Of a DNA stretch of 33,858 nt, positions 1 to 33,858 are shown piece by piece. A program made the position numbers and the translations under genes. The notes beneath the pieces were generated by a model. The model had not been told where the DNA came from. It saw only the letters and a program-made list of their open reading frames with translations, and did no database searches. This DNA is from an uncultured Spartobacteria bacterium (GTDB taxonomy: Bacteria; Verrucomicrobiota; Verrucomicrobiia; Chthoniobacterales; Chthoniobacteraceae), in NCBI GenBank assembly GCA_903919125.1, contig CAIXGS010000047.1, positions 1 through 33,858 on the forward strand, given 5' to 3'. Numbering within the stretch: the stretch's first letter is position 1; every line of letters starts with the position of its first letter.

Positions 1-5
1 GTTCT

Positions 6-139
6 TCTCTCCCGGGAACGCGGAGCCCTAGCTCCGCTTTGACGCCCCAAAAGCTCGGACAGGCATTGCGGAGCTGGGGCTCCGCGCTCCCAGGTGCTGA
101 GGTCTCTTGAATCATCCAGAAAACTTAAATAGGTGGTAT
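6..139 (+). repeat. Left copy of a 134-bp perfect terminal inverted repeat
   Basis: Read base by base, 6-139 is the exact reverse complement of 33725-33858. Identity stops at base 140 (t here, the other copy reads a). The outer 84 bases hold a pair of inverted REP-like palindromes. The inner 45 bases (95-139) are ordinary unique-looking sequence that both copies also share, so the repeat unit is larger than the palindrome pair. It lies 45 bases beyond the stop codon of the yqjK-like gene. The simplest reading is a dispersed intergenic repeat at which the assembly ended. Bases 1-5 lie outside the matched part only because the other copy runs off the window. Confidence 0.95.
11..94 (+). repeat. 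REPIN-like doublet of two inverted REP palindromes (left)
   Basis: Arm 1 (11-37) and the reverse complement of arm 2 (68-94) agree at 24 of 27 bases, and all three differences are transitions. Each arm contains its own hairpin with the same 7-bp stem GCGGAGC/GCTCCGC: 20-37 with loop CCTA and 68-85 with loop TGGG. The arms are separated by 30 bases. Two REP-type palindromes in inverted order are the defining layout of REPINs, which are mobilised by RAYT (REP-associated tyrosine) transposases in other bacteria. No RAYT gene is present in this window, so the class assignment rests on structure alone. Confidence 0.75.
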
Positions 140-9142: not shown

Positions 9143-12100
9143 CTATTTGGAAAGCGTCCAAGTGCCTGTGGTTAGGCTGGGTACCACGCCGCTTTCCATC
9201 CAGCCTTGGGCCGCGCGCGAGCTGCTGGTGCCGGAATCGATTGAGGCACCTACAAATGTTCTTCGGGCGCCCGATGCAATATAGAAGCCCGACCACAAGC
9301 CTGTGGTGCGGTCTAGGCGCGGTCGGAATACGGGAGAAATCGTGGTGCCGTCTGAGGCTGTGTTCGAAACTGCGCTGACAACCGCAGAGGTTGAAATGGT
9401 GATCGCCCAAGAGTAGGTGAGTGAGGGGCCTGAAACTTGAGGATCGACGACACTCAGGGTCAGCGCGGTCGCGGTGGGTAGGAAGGTTGGCAAAGTTGCG
9501 GAACTGGTCCCGCACCAGCGTGCGCCGTCGTTGTGGGTAAAGGCGACTTTTGAGACGCCCGTAGAGTTTGTGCCGAGGGCGAACAGGGAGCCTGAGTAAA
9601 CTGGCACAATGCCGAGAGTGCCAGAGGCGCTTTTGAGCAGGTAGCTGGCTTGTTTTTCGAGGGTGCCAGAGTCGAGGGAAGCCGCCCAGAGAGAGCCGCT
9701 ACTAATATTGAAGTTGAGTTCCGCAAGTAGGCTTGTGGAGTTGTGCAGCTTGGTGGATGTAACCTGGCGGCCTTCGTACAACGAAACGGAGGGATTCGTG
9801 AGATCTGTGGTGTTGAGGTAGCCGGTACCGGTGCCTGTATAACCTTTGAGTCTCGTGTTCCAGAGCACCCGCCCGGAGGTGACCACTTGCGATTGGATAA
9901 AGGCTTGTTCGCCCACATTCGCAGCCAGCAGGTACTTGCCTACCAGCGTACTCAGGCTGCCGGCGGTCAAGCTCGTCGCCGCTTTGGCGATGTTGGCAGC
10001 CGCGCTTACACAGGTTCCACTTTGAAGGGAAACGAAGTCCGAGAGAGATGCACTCAATGTGGGGGCGGCTTGGGAGAGATCAAATTCTATGGTTAAACTT
10101 TGGCGCGCTGCTTGGGCTGTGGTTCCCAGCTTTGGCGTGAGTGTCATGGTCGAGGGTACCCCAGTTTTTGGGGCTAACCTTCCCGCAAACGTACGCACTA
10201 TAGGCGCATAAACCCGCTCTCCTGACGTGCCGCCCGAGAGCAGTGTCGCCTCGTTAAATTGCAGTCGTCCGGAAACTGAGCCGCTACGACTGACGGTTAC
10301 AGTGAGAAGTCCACGGTAGACGGAGCCGTCGTTGAGGGCGGTTGCGGCGGCGGATTCATTGGCTAGCAAGGTTTGGTAGGTGCCCATGGCGGAATCCCAT
10401 GTGGCGAAGGTCAGGTTAAACGGCTTGGAGAAGTCGTAAATTTTACCAGAGGCACTGGTGCGCTCGAAGCGGACGGAGTACGAACCGGAATCCGTCAACG
10501 ATTTGAGCGGGATATAAGCCACTCCAGTCGCGGAAACCGAACCGCTCACGGCGGTGGCAGTGGCGGTGCCGGAGTAAAGCGTGTAGGTGGTTTGAGTGCC
10601 GTTGGGTGGGGCGAAAAGGCTGATGGCGAGAGTCGCCTCGGAGCCCTTAATGAGTGCGACATCAGACGGAGGTTGAACGGAAACGAGCGAGCCGCTTTGG
10701 AGACTCACCGCGTTGACCAAGAGCACGACGCTGGCGCTGGTGAGACTTGTGCTCGTTGCGGAATCGGTGATTTGCACACTGTAGGAACCGGAGTCCGAGG
10801 TGGCCGCGCTTGGGATCGTGTAGCTTGAGCCAGTGCCGCCACTGACGGCAGAGCCGTCCTTTTTCCACTGGTAGGAAAGGGTCCCGCTTCCGACTGCCAG
10901 AACTGAAAAGGCTGCTGCGCTCCCCTCATCGAGTGTGAGGGCGGAAGGTTGAGTCAGAATCTCCAGCGAACCGCCAGTGAGAAGCGAGCCGCTTTGCCAG
11001 ATTTGACCGCTGCCGCCCACGATGAGAAAGGTGTTGTTGAAGAAGGTGGCGGCTTTTTCGCTGACTGCTCCGCTCGGCGCGTTGGATTGCGTCCAAGTCG
11101 CTCCATCCGTGGAGAGGACGTGGATTTTTGCATTACTGGATTCTTGGTCAACGCCTGCTGCAAGATAAACTCCTCCACCATAGGCAAGTGCTGGAGTTAG
11201 TTCGGTGGTGGAACGGGTGGTGGTGAACGTGGCGCCATTGTCGGTGGAAACTCTTAATTTGGAGTACCATCCGCTCCCCACGAATCGGTTGTTGAGGTAG
11301 GCGATGCTGTTGAGGTCGGTTGAGCTAGTGAGTCCGGAACCCGAGGTTTTAGTGACCCAGTTGGAGCCGTCTGTGGAGGTGTAAATCTGTCCGTCACCGC
11401 TGGCGCTGGAGAGGTTGTAGTTGTGTGATGTGGCCACAAATGTGCCTGAACCATAAGCAAGGCCAGTCACGGAATGCAGAGATGAGATAGAAACTGTGCC
11501 GGATGAAACGGAAGTCCATGCGCTGCCCCCGTCTGTGGAGCGTAGCAATCGGCCCGCATCGCCGCCCACGAGGAGAGTCCCTCCGACGCCCGCGACCGAT
11601 CGGAAGGCATTAATCGAAGAGGTGGAGGTGCTCGATGTGTATTTTTTACTCCACGTGATGCCGTCCGTGGACGTGTGAATTACTCCCACCCAACCGGTCG
11701 TGTAATCCAGACCGACCGCGACGAAGCGGGTTCCGTCCCAAGCAACCCCTTGGAGATACATGTTCGTCGGCGAGGAGAGCGTACGATCCGTCCAGATCTT
11801 CCCATCCGTTGAGGTCACGACCTTGCCCCTGTCGCCTACGGCAACCGCCAGCGAGCCGCTCGAGGCAATGCCATTGAGCGTAACCGTCCCGCTTGCCGTC
11901 GCGCTCCCGCCGGAAACCAGAGTGAAGCTCTGCGCCGGGTCACTGACCACCAACGAGGTGCCGCTGGTGACTGAGCCGCCTTTGCCATCGTTGACCGTCA
12001 GCGAGACGCTGTACGTTCCGCCCGCTGCGTACGTGTTGGTGAAAACGCTCGAGGTGCCGCTGTGAACTCCGTCGCCGGCGTCCCACCGGTAGCTCAGTGA

Positions 12101-15100
12101 GTCTCCGTCGGCGTCCGTCGCGGTTACAGCGAGCGTAATGGGCGCTCGGGCACTGCGCATGGTTTGCGCCACAAGCGAGGTGATAACTGGGGCGTTGTTG
12201 GTCGTCGCCAGGGTGTTGCTTTGGTATATTGCTCCTCCTGAACCAACACTAATGAGGCGGTTGTTGAAAAAGATCCCGTCATTCTGGTAGCTCATGCCTG
12301 TTGTAGGCGTGGAAGTTTTCCAGGTTCCTCCATCAATCGAGTACAGGTTAATGGGAGTGTAGGCGGTCGTCGTGTTACTCCCGACGGTGGTTTGCGTCAC
12401 AGTGTTTCCCGAAGCGAAGTAAAGTCCGGAGGCGTAGCCCAGCACGCTTGCGAGATCCGTTTCGGTACGCGAAGTGGAAAAGGTCAGCGTCCCGTTGTTG
12501 ATCGTCCCGGTTTTGAGTCCGGAGAGCCAACCGCTGGTGATAAATTTGCCGTTGAGGTAAGCGATTTTCTGGAAGTCTTCGTAAGTTGAGGAGAAACCAG
12601 CGCCCGTGGTTTGGTCAGTCCATGTCTCCCCAGTGGGCGAAGTGCAGACCACTCCATTTCCTGTAACCAACGACTCTGACCTTGCTGTGAGCACGAAAAG
12701 GCTTCCGCCGAACGCTATTCCACGACAAGACATCAAGCCGGAACTGACCGATGGGATTCCCGTGATAGCGGTCCAATTTGTCCCTCCATCCACGGAACGC
12801 AGCACCGTGCCAGAGTCGCCTACCGCGAGGATGACGTTATTCGCAGCGCAAACGGAACGAATCACGGTCTGGTCCATCGAAGAGCTGTAACGGCGCGTCC
12901 AAACGAGCCCATCAGACGAAGTATAGATGACTCCGTACCAACCAGCTGTATCACTATAATCCTGCCCCCCGACAATAAACCGGGTTCCGTCCCAAGTGAC
13001 GCATTCGAGGTAGATGTTCAAGGTCGATTCCGCAACGGCGCGCTCCGTCCAGACTATCCCGTCGGGTGAGGTGCGAATGACGTTGGAATTTCCCCCAGAT
13101 CCGTGATCTCCGACGGCGACAATCAGCGTGGGACTTGCAGCGACGGCATTGATGTCGGCGCTAGTGCCGCTGGTTCGCGAAGCGAATTTTTGCGCAGGAT
13201 CTTGGACATCGACGGACGCAGAAGCGGTGGCGGTGGCGCCCTTCATATCGCTCACTGTGAGGTTGATTGTGTAAGTTCCACCTGTGACGTAGGTGTGCGT
13301 GAATGTGGCGGCGCTTGCGCCTGAGCCGCCCGTGATCGTGCCGTCGCCCGCGTCCCAGAAATAGGCGAGGGTTGCGCCGGTGGAGCAGGTGGCGTTCGCT
13401 GTGAAAGTAGTCGCTGAGCGTGCGTTGAAGGTGCTTGTTCCCGCAGAAATCGAGGCAGTGCAAGACCCCGTGCTTAGCGTCCCCGTGTGGATTTGGACAT
13501 CGAGGTACTTGTTGTAGCCGCTACCGCCGTAACCCACAGGAGTGATATGCACTTTGGCGGTGGCGTCGGAATACGTGCGGCCGACGTCTAGTCCGGAGTC
13601 GGCCTTGCCTACAGTGGTTGATCCTAGCGAGGCCGTTCCAGAGGTAAGCGGGGTGGTGTCGATAAGCATGCACTTATCCTGCGAGTTTACCGAGGGGTAC
13701 CGCTCCCAAAGCATATATGCGCCTTGAGTAAGGTGCTGGTTGTCCGTGTTAGTGGGACGGTAACCGATCCAGTAGTACTCAGAGGTGGAGGTGCCTCCGG
13801 TGGTGGTGGTTCCTTTGGTGAGCCGTACGCCTCGGAGCGTTCCTGTGGTGAGCTCCGAATCAATCTGGTAAATGCGGTACAAATTGGAGCCCAAAGCGGT
13901 GGCGTCCTGCCATTGGGGAGTGGTTGCGCTGGCGGAGTCCGCACTACTGATCCAGCCCAGTTTCTGCTTGGCTTGAGGATGAAAGTGGCCGTTTGGAAGG
14001 GAGCCGTCTCCCATCACGTCGTATGGATCGCCATACTCCTTTTCAGCGCCGTCGCCCACGGCCGAGGAGGTGCCGGCGGTGACTTGCCAGAAATTGGAGT
14101 GGCCCAAACCGTAAACATGACCCATCTCGTGGACGTAGACCTTTGCGTCGTTGTTACCCTGCATCCAAAAATCTCCGCCACCGACGCTCGCGAGCCCTGC
14201 GATTTTGACTCCATTGCCATAACACCCGATGTCCACAAAGGTCACCCCAACGATGTCATAATCGCCCAAGTCGCCGCCTAAAATTCCCACTGTGGCTAGC
14301 GTCCCGATGTTGATGGCTGCGTCAGCCCCCGATTTAGTGGAGCGAAACTTCGTGCGTGCATCTTCCAGCAGCGTCGACATTTTACTGGTGAAGGTGCCCG
14401 CCGCTACTGAGTCTGATGGCCGCGTGCCGGCGTAGTATGTTGCGGTATTCGCTAGTTGATAAGTGCCGGAACTCACTGTGGTCGTCACGTAAGTGTTTCC
14501 ATATGAAAATTGGTAAAGTGAGGCGGCTGTCGTTCCCGCATTCGAAGTCCCGTTGATGACCGTTTCCGCCGCGCTTTTAGTGACAATAGACGTGTTGGAG
14601 GTGCCTGAGATCACGGCGCGGATTAAAAACATTTTCTTTGGCGTGCTCGTCCAATCCGTGGCAGCGGCTGCTGCTTGCATTTCTGCGGCGGGCAGGTTGA
14701 AGGCGGTAATGTTGCCGCTGGCTCCATCAACACTGTAGGGGAGCGAAAAGATCGCCCGCGAACCTGCGTGTGGACCAGGCTTTGTGTCCAACTTCGCGAT
14801 GGCGGCGTCAAATTTGAGCAATTCTTCCGAACTGGCGAAAGTGAACCGCTTGCCTCCAGCCAAGGCCGTTACCGCTTCACCTGTAATCGGTTCGCCCGTC
14901 ACAAAGCTACGCTTTGGATCGGGTTGTCCCGCAGGGAATTTAAGGGCAGCGACGCTCGCTTCCTCCGCGTTCAAGGGTTGAAATACGCCGTCGCGTAGAG
15001 CCGCTATTCCGTCCAAGGCGATGCCTTGAGTTGGCAGCCCTTGCTTGGAGTTGACTGCGGTTTTCTCTCCATAAACGAACCCTTGCACCACTTCGCCACT

Positions 15101-15685
15101 GGCAAATTGGATCTCGATCAAGGCCTGCCGAGCGTTGGGAGAATCATTCGCAGAGTTTCCCGGGCTCGGACACACTGGAAACAATTTGTAATTCACGGGT
15201 TCACTGAACGGCTTTTCCACCTCAGCCCTAATTCCAACGGGGAGCGCCTCCCATTCGTTTAAGTGAAGCGCCTCCTGAATGGCGGATTCCGGGTTGGAGC
15301 GGATCAACTGGGCCATGACGGGGCGGCGGGCCTGAGCGAGGGCGAGACCGGCTTCGAGCGCGTCCTTTTGCTGGTCTGGGGAGGCTTGTAGGTAATCCGC
15401 GAGCCACTGGCGAAAGGCGACGAGGGGCGGCAATACAGCAGAGGGGAGCGCTGGAGTGGCTACGGCTGGGAGCGGTGCTATTGAGTTGACGGGCGCGACT
15501 GGGGCGGGGGACGTCCCAGCAGGCGGAGCAAAGTTTGTCGAGGGCGCGCTCGTAGCGGTTTCCGGTGCGGGCGCGGGTTTGGAAACGTTTGCCTGACGCA
15601 TTTCAAAAACGAGCGCAACAAGGGAAAGGAATGCGCAGGTTAAGATTAACCAACGCACCGAAGGCCAAAGGGGTGTTTTTTTCAT
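9143..15685 (-). CDS. Giant surface-type metzincin metalloprotease with duplicated PKD and propeller modules
   Basis: The 2180-residue product begins with a hydrophobic segment (11-28) acting as signal or anchor, then a Pro/Ala/Thr-rich linker (34-88). The catalytic region lies within about 350-735. The zinc motif HExxHxxGxxH is at H519, E520, H523, G526 and H529, and YDVMGD (M558) supplies the Met-turn expected of metzincin-like peptidases. A PKD domain (about 740-828, WDAGDG at 777) precedes a BNR/WD-like propeller (about 832-1160). A second PKD (1164-1250, WDAGDG at 1201) and a second propeller (1254-1565) repeat this order. An Ig-like domain (about 1575-1658) and a Ser/Gly-rich C-terminal half (about 1760-2180) follow. 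It presumably acts outside the cell or on its surface. Substrate and anchoring are unknown. It is monocistronic, between convergent SGNH genes and a divergent secreted protein. Confidence 0.85.
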   Translation of the reverse strand: MKKTPLWPSVRWLILTCAFLSLVALVFEMRQANVSKPAPAPETATSAPSTNFAPPAGTSPAPVAPVNSIAPLPAVATPALPSAVLPPLVAFRQWLADYLQASPDQQKDALEAGLALAQARRPVMAQLIRSNPESAIQEALHLNEWEALPVGIRAEVEKPFSEPVNYKLFPVCPSPGNSANDSPNARQALIEIQFASGEVVQGFVYGEKTAVNSKQGLPTQGIALDGIAALRDGVFQPLNAEEASVAALKFPAGQPDPKRSFVTGEPITGEAVTALAGGKRFTFASSEELLKFDAAIAKLDTKPGPHAGSRAIFSLPYSVDGASGNITAFNLPAAEMQAAAAATDWTSTPKKMFLIRAVISGTSNTSIVTKSAAETVINGTSNAGTTAASLYQFSYGNTYVTTTVSSGTYQLANTATYYAGTRPSDSVAAGTFTSKMSTLLEDARTKFRSTKSGADAAINIGTLATVGILGGDLGDYDIVGVTFVDIGCYGNGVKIAGLASVGGGDFWMQGNNDAKVYVHEMGHVYGLGHSNFWQVTAGTSSAVGDGAEKEYGDPYDVMGDGSLPNGHFHPQAKQKLGWISSADSASATTPQWQDATALGSNLYRIYQIDSELTTGTLRGVRLTKGTTTTGGTSTSEYYWIGYRPTNTDNQHLTQGAYMLWERYPSVNSQDKCMLIDTTPLTSGTASLGSTTVGKADSGLDVGRTYSDATAKVHITPVGYGGSGYNKYLDVQIHTGTLSTGSCTASISAGTSTFNARSATTFTANATCSTGATLAYFWDAGDGTITGGSGASAATFTHTYVTGGTYTINLTVSDMKGATATASASVDVQDPAQKFASRTSGTSADINAVAASPTLIVAVGDHGSGGNSNVIRTSPDGIVWTERAVAESTLNIYLECVTWDGTRFIVGGQDYSDTAGWYGVIYTSSDGLVWTRRYSSSMDQTVIRSVCAANNVILAVGDSGTVLRSVDGGTNWTAITGIPSVSSGLMSCRGIAFGGSLFVLTARSESLVTGNGVVCTSPTGETWTDQTTGAGFSSTYEDFQKIAYLNGKFITSGWLSGLKTGTINNGTLTFSTSRTETDLASVLGYASGLYFASGNTVTQTTVGSNTTTAYTPINLYSIDGGTWKTSTPTTGMSYQNDGIFFNNRLISVGSGGAIYQSNTLATTNNAPVITSLVAQTMRSARAPITLAVTATDADGDSLSYRWDAGDGVHSGTSSVFTNTYAAGGTYSVSLTVNDGKGGSVTSGTSLVVSDPAQSFTLVSGGSATASGTVTLNGIASSGSLAVAVGDRGKVVTSTDGKIWTDRTLSSPTNMYLQGVAWDGTRFVAVGLDYTTGWVGVIHTSTDGITWSKKYTSSTSTSSINAFRSVAGVGGTLLVGGDAGRLLRSTDGGSAWTSVSSGTVSISSLHSVTGLAYGSGTFVATSHNYNLSSASGDGQIYTSTDGSNWVTKTSGSGLTSSTDLNSIAYLNNRFVGSGWYSKLRVSTDNGATFTTTRSTTELTPALAYGGGVYLAAGVDQESSNAKIHVLSTDGATWTQSNAPSGAVSEKAATFFNNTFLIVGGSGQIWQSGSLLTGGSLEILTQPSALTLDEGSAAAFSVLAVGSGTLSYQWKKDGSAVSGGTGSSYTIPSAATSDSGSYSVQITDSATSTSLTSASVVLLVNAVSLQSGSLVSVQPPSDVALIKGSEATLAISLFAPPNGTQTTYTLYSGTATATAVSGSVSATGVAYIPLKSLTDSGSYSVRFERTSASGKIYDFSKPFNLTFATWDSAMGTYQTLLANESAAATALNDGSVYRGLLTVTVSRSGSVSGRLQFNEATLLSGGTSGERVYAPIVRTFAGRLAPKTGVPSTMTLTPKLGTTAQAARQSLTIEFDLSQAAPTLSASLSDFVSLQSGTCVSAAANIAKAATSLTAGSLSTLVGKYLLAANVGEQAFIQSQVVTSGRVLWNTRLKGYTGTGTGYLNTTDLTNPSVSLYEGRQVTSTKLHNSTSLLAELNFNISSGSLWAASLDSGTLEKQASYLLKSASGTLGIVPVYSGSLFALGTNSTGVSKVAFTHNDGARWCGTSSATLPTFLPTATALTLSVVDPQVSGPSLTYSWAITISTSAVVSAVSNTASDGTTISPVFRPRLDRTTGLWSGFYIASGARRTFVGASIDSGTSSSRAAQGWMESGVVPSLTTGTWTLSK

Positions 15686-21254: not shown

Positions 21255-25904
<4,650 letters not shown>

Positions 25905-26840: not shown

Positions 26841-29216
26841 TTATGCTCCGGCTTGGCCAGGTGTCAGGCGGGTGACTTCTGTGTGTTTGCTGGATTTCTG
26901 TTTGCCGTTCCACCAGAGCACCACCGGTGCTGCCACGAAGACCGAAGAATACGTTCCCACGAGAACTCCGATGAGAATGGCCAACGCGAAATCTGCCAGC
27001 ACAGGGCCACCGAAGAAGAACAACGAAATCGTCGAGAGCAACGTCACTCCGCCAGTGATGATGGTGCGCGACAGTGTCTCGTTGATGCTCAAATTCATGA
27101 TGTCCATCACCGAACCTTTGCGGCCAGTCTGCATGCCTTCGCGAATGCGGTCGAAGACCACGATGGTGTCGTTCACTGAGTAACCCGCGATGGTCAGCAC
27201 TGCGCCGACGGTGACCAGCGAGAGTTCGCGGCCCAGAAGCGCAAAGACTCCAATTGTAATAGTCACGTCATGCAACAGAGCCACGAGCGCTCCAAGCGCG
27301 AAGGAAAACTCGAAGCGAACCGTGACATAAACCAAAATCCCAAGCATCCCGAGCAAGAGCGCCATGAGCGAGTTGCGCGCGAGTTCGCCCCCGACGAGGC
27401 TGCCGACGGTTTCCACCGCTTCCACGCGGAATTCCGCCTGAGGAAACTTTGCTTTGATCCCTTCCGCGAGCTTCTCTCCCGTGCCCTGGGGACTGCGAAT
27501 GGTGAAAAACTCCTTGGCCGCCGACTTCTCGATTTGCACGGCTGCTTCGCCCACTTTTTGAGCATCCACAACTTCGCGGACTTCTTTGATTTCGGGTTTG
27601 ACTTTGACTGCCTCCAAAACGACGCGGTCGCCGCCCTTGAAATCGACACCAAAGTTCTTTTCGCCACGTGCCCAAAAAAGAGCCAATGAGGCGAAGATAA
27701 CGCTCAGCGAGCAGGCGATCGCCAGCTTACGCCAGCGCAGGAAATTGAAGTTTGAAGTAACCAGAAGGCGGCCCATGGAGACATTCTTGAGCAGGCCTAA
27801 TTCAATGGCCCAGCCGAAGAAATTGCGCGAAGCAATCAAGGCAGTGAACAACGTCGCCAGAATCCCAATGCATAATGCCACAGCGAAGCCTTTCACGGGA
27901 CCGGTGGCCTTCCAGAAAAGGATTAGGGCGGTAATCAAGGTGGTGATGTTCGAGTCGAAAATGGCTGGGAAAGCCTTTTCAAACGCTGAACGTACGACGG
28001 CAGCCAGCGGGCGTTTGTCCGACATTTCTTCGCGCAACCGCTCGTAAACCAGAACGTTGGCGTCCACGGCCATGCCAAGGGTCAAAATGATCCCCGCAAT
28101 CCCGGGCAAAGTCAAAACCGTGCCGAATAGGCCCATGGCACCAAAAAGCAGTACTAGGTTCACGATGAGCGCAAGATTTGCGATCACCCCGCTGAAGCGG
28201 TAATACACAAGGACGAAGAGCGCTATCATCGCCAGACCAAGTAATCCGGAGAAAATTCCGCTGTTAATCGAGTCCTCCCCGAGTGAGGCCGAGGCGGTAC
28301 GCTCTTCTTCGATGACCACAGGCGTTTGGAGCGGATTTTCCAGCACGCTGGCGAGATTGCGCGCTTGTGCTTCGGTAAAGTGCCCCGTGATCGAGGCGTT
28401 TCCACCTGTGATTGCTTCTCTAATTACCGGTGCGGATTGCACTTTGCCGTCCAACATAATGGCGAAACGTTTGCCGACGTTTTCCTGCGTCAACTTCGCA
28501 AACAAACTAGCTCCCTCGGCACTGAAACTCAGACTCACTCCCCACCCTTGCGTGTCAAAAAAAGCGCGAGCTCCATTGACCATGCTGCCGGGAATGTCCG
28601 CCTTTTTTTTGACCACGAGGCGCTCTTCGATTTCCTTGCCATCGCGTTCATCTTTGTACACCTCCAATTTGAAGGCGGGATCCGGTGGAACCAACCCTTG
28701 GACGATGCTGTCGCTCTGGGGGTGCACGAGCTTAAAGTCGAGCTTTGCGGGGCGATAAAGCTGCTCCCTTGCCTCCTGCAATTTGCCGGTATTCATCCCG
28801 GGAATTTGAACCATAATGCGATCCGTACCCTGTGGCGCAATCACGGGTTCGCTTGTGCCCATCGAGTCGACGCGGCGCCGGATCACTTCCCGCGCCTGAT
28901 CGAGCATCGCGGGGGTGATAGGGCGCACTGTGCCAGTTTCGTCAGGCTCCGCCTTCAGGCGGATGAGGAACGACGTACCGCCTTTGAGGTCAAGCCCCAG
29001 CGGGAGCTTTTCCTCGGGCGGATAAACCGAACCGATGGCAAATGCGACCACGAGCACCGTCAAAATGCTGCCTAAATGGCGGCGAATGGTTTCGCTGTCT
29101 GTGAGGAAATACCATACGAAGAGGACTGCCAGAAGGAGTCCCATGAGGAAAACGAGGGCGGGAGTCATGAGTGGGTAGGAGGAAAAAAGGGGGTTAAAAT
29201 TATCCGGAAGTTGCAT
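26841..29216 (-). CDS. secDF: SecD-SecF fusion, protein translocase accessory subunit
   Basis: The 791-residue protein joins SecD (about 1-480) and SecF (about 490-780). SecD shows LGLDLKGGTSF (73-83), the P1 periplasmic region, and the proton-relay helix GMAVDANVLVYERLREE (381-397). SecF shows FGVDFKGGDRV (522-532) and GYSVNDTIVVFDRIREG (678-694). It uses the proton gradient to pull secreted proteins across the inner membrane with SecYEG and YajC. Compared with E. coli SecD, an extra hydrophobic helix sits at 17-37 before the usual first helix (about 49-63). Fusion of SecD and SecF is found in several phyla and is not damage. YajC is encoded 31 bases upstream, so yajC-secDF form one operon. 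An ATG at residue 17 (29168) is a possible alternative start. Confidence 0.96.
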   Translation of the reverse strand: MQLPDNFNPLFSSYPLMTPALVFLMGLLLAVLFVWYFLTDSETIRRHLGSILTVLVVAFAIGSVYPPEEKLPLGLDLKGGTSFLIRLKAEPDETGTVRPITPAMLDQAREVIRRRVDSMGTSEPVIAPQGTDRIMVQIPGMNTGKLQEAREQLYRPAKLDFKLVHPQSDSIVQGLVPPDPAFKLEVYKDERDGKEIEERLVVKKKADIPGSMVNGARAFFDTQGWGVSLSFSAEGASLFAKLTQENVGKRFAIMLDGKVQSAPVIREAITGGNASITGHFTEAQARNLASVLENPLQTPVVIEEERTASASLGEDSINSGIFSGLLGLAMIALFVLVYYRFSGVIANLALIVNLVLLFGAMGLFGTVLTLPGIAGIILTLGMAVDANVLVYERLREEMSDKRPLAAVVRSAFEKAFPAIFDSNITTLITALILFWKATGPVKGFAVALCIGILATLFTALIASRNFFGWAIELGLLKNVSMGRLLVTSNFNFLRWRKLAIACSLSVIFASLALFWARGEKNFGVDFKGGDRVVLEAVKVKPEIKEVREVVDAQKVGEAAVQIEKSAAKEFFTIRSPQGTGEKLAEGIKAKFPQAEFRVEAVETVGSLVGGELARNSLMALLLGMLGILVYVTVRFEFSFALGALVALLHDVTITIGVFALLGRELSLVTVGAVLTIAGYSVNDTIVVFDRIREGMQTGRKGSVMDIMNLSINETLSRTIITGGVTLLSTISLFFFGGPVLADFALAILIGVLVGTYSSVFVAAPVVLWWNGKQKSSKHTEVTRLTPGQAGA

Positions 29217-33631: not shown

Positions 33632-33724
33632 CGACAAAATGTTCCAATTATTCGTTGAAAGCAATAAAAAGACGAAATATAGGAACAGTCTTGTTACACC
33701 TCGCGACACTTGGGACTCGATCTT

Positions 33725-33858
33725 ATACCACCTATTTAAGTTTTCTGGATGATTCAAGAGACCTCAGCACCTGGGAGCGCGGAGCCCCAGCTCCGCAATG
33801 CCTGTCCGAGCTTTTGGGGCGTCAAAGCGGAGCTAGGGCTCCGCGTTCCCGGGAGAGA
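33725..33858 (-). repeat. Right copy of the 134-bp perfect terminal inverted repeat
   Basis: This is the exact reverse complement of bases 6-139, with no mismatch. The window ends inside or at the edge of the repeat. Its inner edge is 93 bases upstream of the AbiEi-type gene, so the repeat may lie next to that operon's promoter. Perfect identity between the copies means a recent spread, gene conversion, or a collapsed repeat in the assembly. Confidence 0.95.
33770..33853 (-). repeat. REPIN-like doublet of two inverted REP palindromes (right)
   Basis: This is the second copy of the palindrome pair at 11-94, identical but in opposite orientation. It carries the same GCGGAGC/GCTCCGC stems with loops CCTA and TGGG and the same 30-base spacer. 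Confidence 0.75.

Follow-up and report, generated by a model that had tools for sequence, protein, structure and literature searches.

In this genome a REP doublet (REPIN) has probably been captured by a MITE, the resulting composite amplified by the MITE transposase, and its hairpins targeted by a group II intron. Contig C47 as a whole is the window that was analyzed, a stretch of 33,858 nucleotides, and both of its ends fall inside young copies of the composite. The host genome (G000) is a 95% complete MAG assembled in 87 contigs with a total of 4.34 Mb. Relatives and other copies were compared at the loci around the matches.

Composite copies in the window and in the genome

The features of the window that belong to the composite are as follows.

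1–138, plus strand: composite copy 1 (MITE with REP doublet); right terminus ...GGTGGTA at 138, placed by aligning copies with their flanks
11–94, no strand: REP doublet, the REPIN-like core, from arms and fold; G006 and G008 have this core with no MITE ends around it
11–37, minus strand: REP arm 1, read on the minus strand as GCGGAGCTAGGGCTCCGC + GTTCCCGGG; palindrome at 20–37
38–67, no strand: inter-arm spacer of 30 bases; the 48-bp pitch is kept in 40 doublets
68–94, plus strand: REP arm 2, GCGGAGCTGGGGCTCCGC + GCTCCCAGG; palindrome at 68–85
95–138, plus strand: MITE right end (the 45-base flank of the sequence-only reading), closed by the terminal inverted repeat ...TGGTA
139–141, no strand: putative target-site duplication TTA, seen on one side with the other past the contig end; TNA rule from 23 copies
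33726–33858, minus strand: composite copy 2, truncated at the contig end; TTA precedes it at 33723–33725
33770–33853, no strand: REP doublet of copy 2, in inverse order relative to the doublet of copy 1

The inverted arms of copy 1 are 27 nt each, 24/27 (89%) complementary, and separated by 30 nt. A 7-bp hairpin, GCGGAGC/GCTCCGC, is formed separately by each arm, and the 84-mer doublet is predicted to fold as a single strand into one long hairpin (−31.3 kcal/mol, z = −6.3, 0 of 200 shuffles). The numbers given in the sequence-only reading for the arms, the spacer, and a hairpin in each arm were all reproduced. Its shared 45-base flank is real, with 6–142 an inverted match of 33722–33858 at 99%. 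Because both contig ends are assembly breaks within the same repeat, this flank forms the right end of a longer element, and the larger MITE-like unit that had been suggested is a MITE of 160 bp. The left 22 bases of copy 1 are absent, past the contig end. Most other young copies likewise lie at contig ends because the assembler broke there.

The palindrome GCGGAGCNNNNGCTCCGC appears at 90 sites in the 4.34-Mb genome versus 0 for the reversed control pattern, and its abundance is not due to chance. When 93 arms were paired by script with one mismatch allowed and the unrelated site C60:10499 excluded, 40 doublets were obtained in −/+ order with a pitch of exactly 48 bp. The 13 unpaired arms include 10 that are interrupted by an intron. 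A genome-wide count and the doublet spacing had been proposed as a check in the sequence-only reading, and both came out in its favor. Many inverted REP pairs at a conserved spacing are therefore present, as in a REPIN. The doublet itself is not the replicating unit in G000; homology extends to the MITE ends, and nearly all doublets lie within them. From the left and right junctions of aligned copies, the composite is estimated to occupy about 40 loci in G000, a figure in which copies at contig ends may be counted twice and other copies are missing from the assembly.

With a 159-bp query, the composite or parts of it were detected in 7 of the 12 genomes from this genus and in none of the 28 from the other genera of the family. 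The congeners are Chthoniobacteraceae (Verrucomicrobiota) MAGs, in agreement with the verrucomicrobial lineage first proposed. Two of these genomes bear doubtful names (Akkermansia muciniphila and Opitutus sp. GAS368).

The window also encodes, on the minus strand at 9143–15685, a protein of 2180 aa that contains PKD and Ig domains as well as a pair of diverged internal repeats (11703–11765 and 12957–13019). The neighbors of its gene include those for glutamate synthase (21255–25904) and SecDF (26841–29216). An Acido-Lenti-1 RNA was identified at L132:25–69 on the minus strand (44.5 bits, gathering score 37). Rfam matches of the repeats to microRNA families are below gathering scores and were rejected as chance matches to long hairpins.

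MITE boundaries, empty MITEs, and free REPs

When the copies were aligned with their flanks, homology was found to continue past the doublet, to TACCAAATCTTGAAGAAAACTGG... at the left and ...GGTGGTA at the right. Complete composites are 159–162 bp long with the ends TACCA...TGGTA. The terminal inverted repeats are strictly inverted for the outer 5 bases only and imperfect in the remainder. TNA appears on both sides of 23 copies, counted over composites and short forms from G000 and related genomes. The duplications are identical in 18 of these copies and differ in the other 5, and 0 of 20,000 shuffles reach 18. The element is short and noncoding, with terminal inverted repeats and a TNA target-site duplication, as is a MITE.

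Bacterial MITEs with 2–3-bp duplications, such as those derived from the IS5 family, are short and noncoding and have terminal inverted repeats and a short A/T-rich duplication. The layout found here is the same. The differences are the REPIN cargo and the parent transposase: no parent transposon with matching ends was found among the DDE_Tnp_1 loci retrieved for the genus, which lack terminal inverted repeats of this kind. A 3-bp TNA duplication together with inverted ends is characteristic of DDE-type elements, and HUH/Y1 transposition leaves no target duplication. The MITE transposase is probably of the DDE type, as judged from the 3-bp TNA duplication. From the near-identity of its young copies, the composite appears to be active at the present day.

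Seven empty MITEs of exactly 81 bp were identified in G000 (C66 and C4), G001 (C23, C20, and C10), and G009 (C1 and C87). TNA is present on both sides of 4 of the 7 and is identical in 2 of those 4. When 78 bp are taken out of the 159-bp composites, this 81-bp sequence is restored in register. Short MITEs of 87, 88, 95, and 111 bp still hold scraps of REP and are plainly deletion products. G006 and G008 contain REP arms and doublets that lack MITE ends, and REPs of the same 27-bp consensus were found in Phycisphaerae, Chlorobi, a Lentisphaerae MAG, and Microbulbifer. Among REPs from relatives and from other phyla, GCTCCCAGG is the most frequent tail, with 40 arms against 7 for the runner-up. 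Since empty 81-bp MITEs and free REPs are both present in the genus, the element most likely arose when a REPIN entered a MITE, with which it now travels.

In the reverse order of events, the 160-bp palindrome-bearing element would be the original MITE, with REP-like hairpins of its own, and the short forms would all be deletion derivatives. Short forms of several lengths do retain REP remnants, and the insert is bracketed by CCCGGG and CCCAGG; the 81-bp form could stem from a precise deletion between these two sequences and not be ancestral. This order is nevertheless unlikely, given seven short forms of exactly 81 bp in three species and REP arms that have no MITE ends in G006, G008, Phycisphaerae, and Chlorobi, where a RAYT is present in some cases. 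We infer that the REPIN went into the MITE.

At L117:1498–1650, L120:177–400, and L128:1500–1652 (G004 and G010), a right end resembling that of the MITE, ATACCACTTATTTGAGTTTTCTGGATGATT, adjoins an interior of another sequence, GCCCCGTAAGGGGCACTTCTC... These junctions suggest that the cargo of the MITE is different in other species.

RAYT genes and group II intron junctions

An HUH/Y1 gene is located between two REP pairs at G009:C21, and a RAYT homologue 64% identical to it is located at G006:C23 with several REP arms on one side. Both genes came from the Y1_Tnp profile search and not from REP matches, so the REP/RAYT linkage is not a search artifact. The Chlorobi loci L200, L203, and L209, fetched via REP, contain RAYT homologues (50–61%) with the same REP beside the gene or in frame within it. 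The in-frame REPs of L200 and L203 translate as ELGLRVP. The G009, G006, and Chlorobi genes encode the HUH and single-Tyr motifs of a RAYT (NHVH/NHLH and Y[IT]H[NQ]NP) and are flanked or interrupted by REPs. In NCBIfam, NF047646 (REP_Tyr_transpos) is the family of the REP-associated tyrosine transposase. The G006, L203, and L200 proteins score 82.5–92.2 against its cutoff of 80, and the G009 protein scores 79.3. More distant RAYT homologues (35–44%) appear in G004 without a GCGGAGC-type REP.

No match for a cognate RAYT was obtained in the assembly of G000 or in G003, the other composite-rich genome. The Y1_Tnp profile search of G000 gave 5 matches, each of which was checked. The candidates on C36 and C69 were rejected as RAYT-like genes with no GCGGAGC REP nearby, C49 as an IS200-type TnpA, and C61:141527 (L069:2462–2734), approximately 120 bp from a composite copy, as the C-terminal remnant of an IS200-type TnpA. 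As the MAG is 95% complete and loses multicopy elements, a RAYT or the MITE transposase may simply be missing from the assembly. The C36 and C69 genes lie amid a different repeat, GTGTCTGTCCCC, that also flanks some composite copies; sites of this repeat or of the RAYT-like genes are L071:1–1224, L072:3490–4686, and L134 (C56) near 560 and 720. The repeat may be a second REP family, for which these genes would supply the RAYT.

The sequence-only reading had proposed a REPIN mobilized by a RAYT and a search for a RAYT gene flanked by the same REP. This proposal is partly supported by relatives, where the arms are real REPs that flank a RAYT in G009, adjoin one in G006, and accompany RAYTs at three Chlorobi loci. 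It is not supported in G000, where no cognate RAYT was found and the copies have terminal inverted repeats and TNA duplications, neither of which is a product of HUH/Y1 (RAYT) transposition. For lack of a cognate RAYT in G000, the window element is not classed as a stand-alone REPIN; with the terminal inverted repeats and TNA duplications also taken into account, the enclosing MITE is the unit spreading in G000 and the REPIN is its cargo.

A classical REPIN, with the 84-bp doublet moved by an HUH/Y1 RAYT of G000 and the flanks shared through segmental duplication only, would account for the doublet layout, the hairpin, and the same REP around RAYT genes in congeners and Chlorobi. It is very unlikely here because the shared sequence reaches TACCA...TGGTA beyond the doublet ends, TNA duplications are present, nearly all G000 doublets lie inside MITE ends, and the cognate RAYT is absent from the assembly. 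Nonmobile structural repeats under selection, such as transcription terminators or nucleoid sites, would suit the very stable hairpins and can be given almost no credence, as near-identity over 160 bp at unrelated flanks speaks against them and the TNA duplications already contradict them.

Capture by the MITE was apparently followed by invasion of the arms. Ten palindromes are split at one fixed base, where GCGGAGCTNGGGC is followed by GTGCGCTGGGG...; at the 3′ junctions, ...CTCCCTACTCTAT is followed by TCCGC. The uninterrupted target site is GCGGAGCTNGGGC followed by TCCGC. A group II domain V (RF00029, 54 bits) is located just upstream of the 3′ junctions. The GTGCG start (GUGYG 5′ end), domain V, and the 3′ end CTCTAT (AY) are those of a group II intron, and an IS110-like element was ruled out as the cause of the split arms by these junctions and domain V. 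The position and orientation of the intron relative to the REP arm are constant in the copies seen, and the intron body is absent from the assembly. Class C group II introns insert after terminator hairpins, whereas the cut observed here falls inside the 3′ strand of the hairpin stem. The split arms are at G000 contig ends C4, C7, C17, C25, C31, C54, C55, C56, C85, and C86 and at L248, L249, L250, L254, and L256. Related intron 3′ ends appear at G001:C3 and G009:C16.

Proposed history and related systems

In the proposed history, a REPIN, whose REP still has a cognate RAYT in sister species and Chlorobi, would have inserted into an 81-bp MITE to give the 159/160-bp composite. In G000, apparently RAYT-less, the composite would spread as a MITE, with the transposase acting on the TACCA...TGGTA ends and the REP doublet carried along. 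The strong REP hairpins would then serve as the landing site of the group II intron, which would split the arm at one fixed base.

The REPINs of Pseudomonas fluorescens SBW25 (PMC3116915) are similar in their inverted REP doublets, fixed spacing, single hairpin, and link to a RAYT, which here is found in relatives. The composite differs in its pitch (48 bp versus 71 bp for SBW25 GI doublets; PMC3116915), in the MITE with terminal inverted repeats and TNA duplication that encloses the doublet, in a cognate RAYT not found in the host assembly, and in having no GTAG tag. REPtrons and TnpA-REP, in the excerpted text of PMC6006769, likewise have an HUH-Y1 gene flanked or invaded by REPs and the motifs NHVH/NHLH and Y[IT]H[NQ]NP. 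The likeness extends by features, without formal subclass assignment, to subclass 2.6 (and class 3), with REPs that lack GT[AG]G as do those found here, and to subclass 2.4, with REPs inserted within the gene (compare L200 and L203). No mention of a MITE-borne doublet was found in that excerpt.

The GTAG/CGTC REP superfamilies with RAYT/TIRYT (PMC3733652) also include hairpin REPs in PVC bacteria and Chlorobi. The arms described here differ in carrying no consistent GTAG or CGTC tag, the GCTCCCAGG tail being conserved instead, and were rejected as CGTC-tagged REPs on that inconsistency. ISPpu9, ISPsy8, and ISPa11 (PMC1525189) are mobile elements that insert specifically in REP, whereas the invader here is a group II intron. 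No report of REPs nested in MITEs or of group II introns in REPs was found among open-license papers.

REPINs are generally assumed to depend on their own RAYT. Chances are even that this REPIN population outlived its RAYT by a change of vehicle, through capture by a MITE and amplification by an unrelated transposase. If this is true, REP doublets do not need an enzyme of their own to persist and expand, and a clear case of vehicle switching would account for REP families whose genomes have no matching RAYT. A group II intron, with REP hairpins as its fixed landing site, joins the IS elements known to target REPs. The genus holds all of the states together (free REP, empty MITE, composite, and RAYT present or absent), which makes the question testable.
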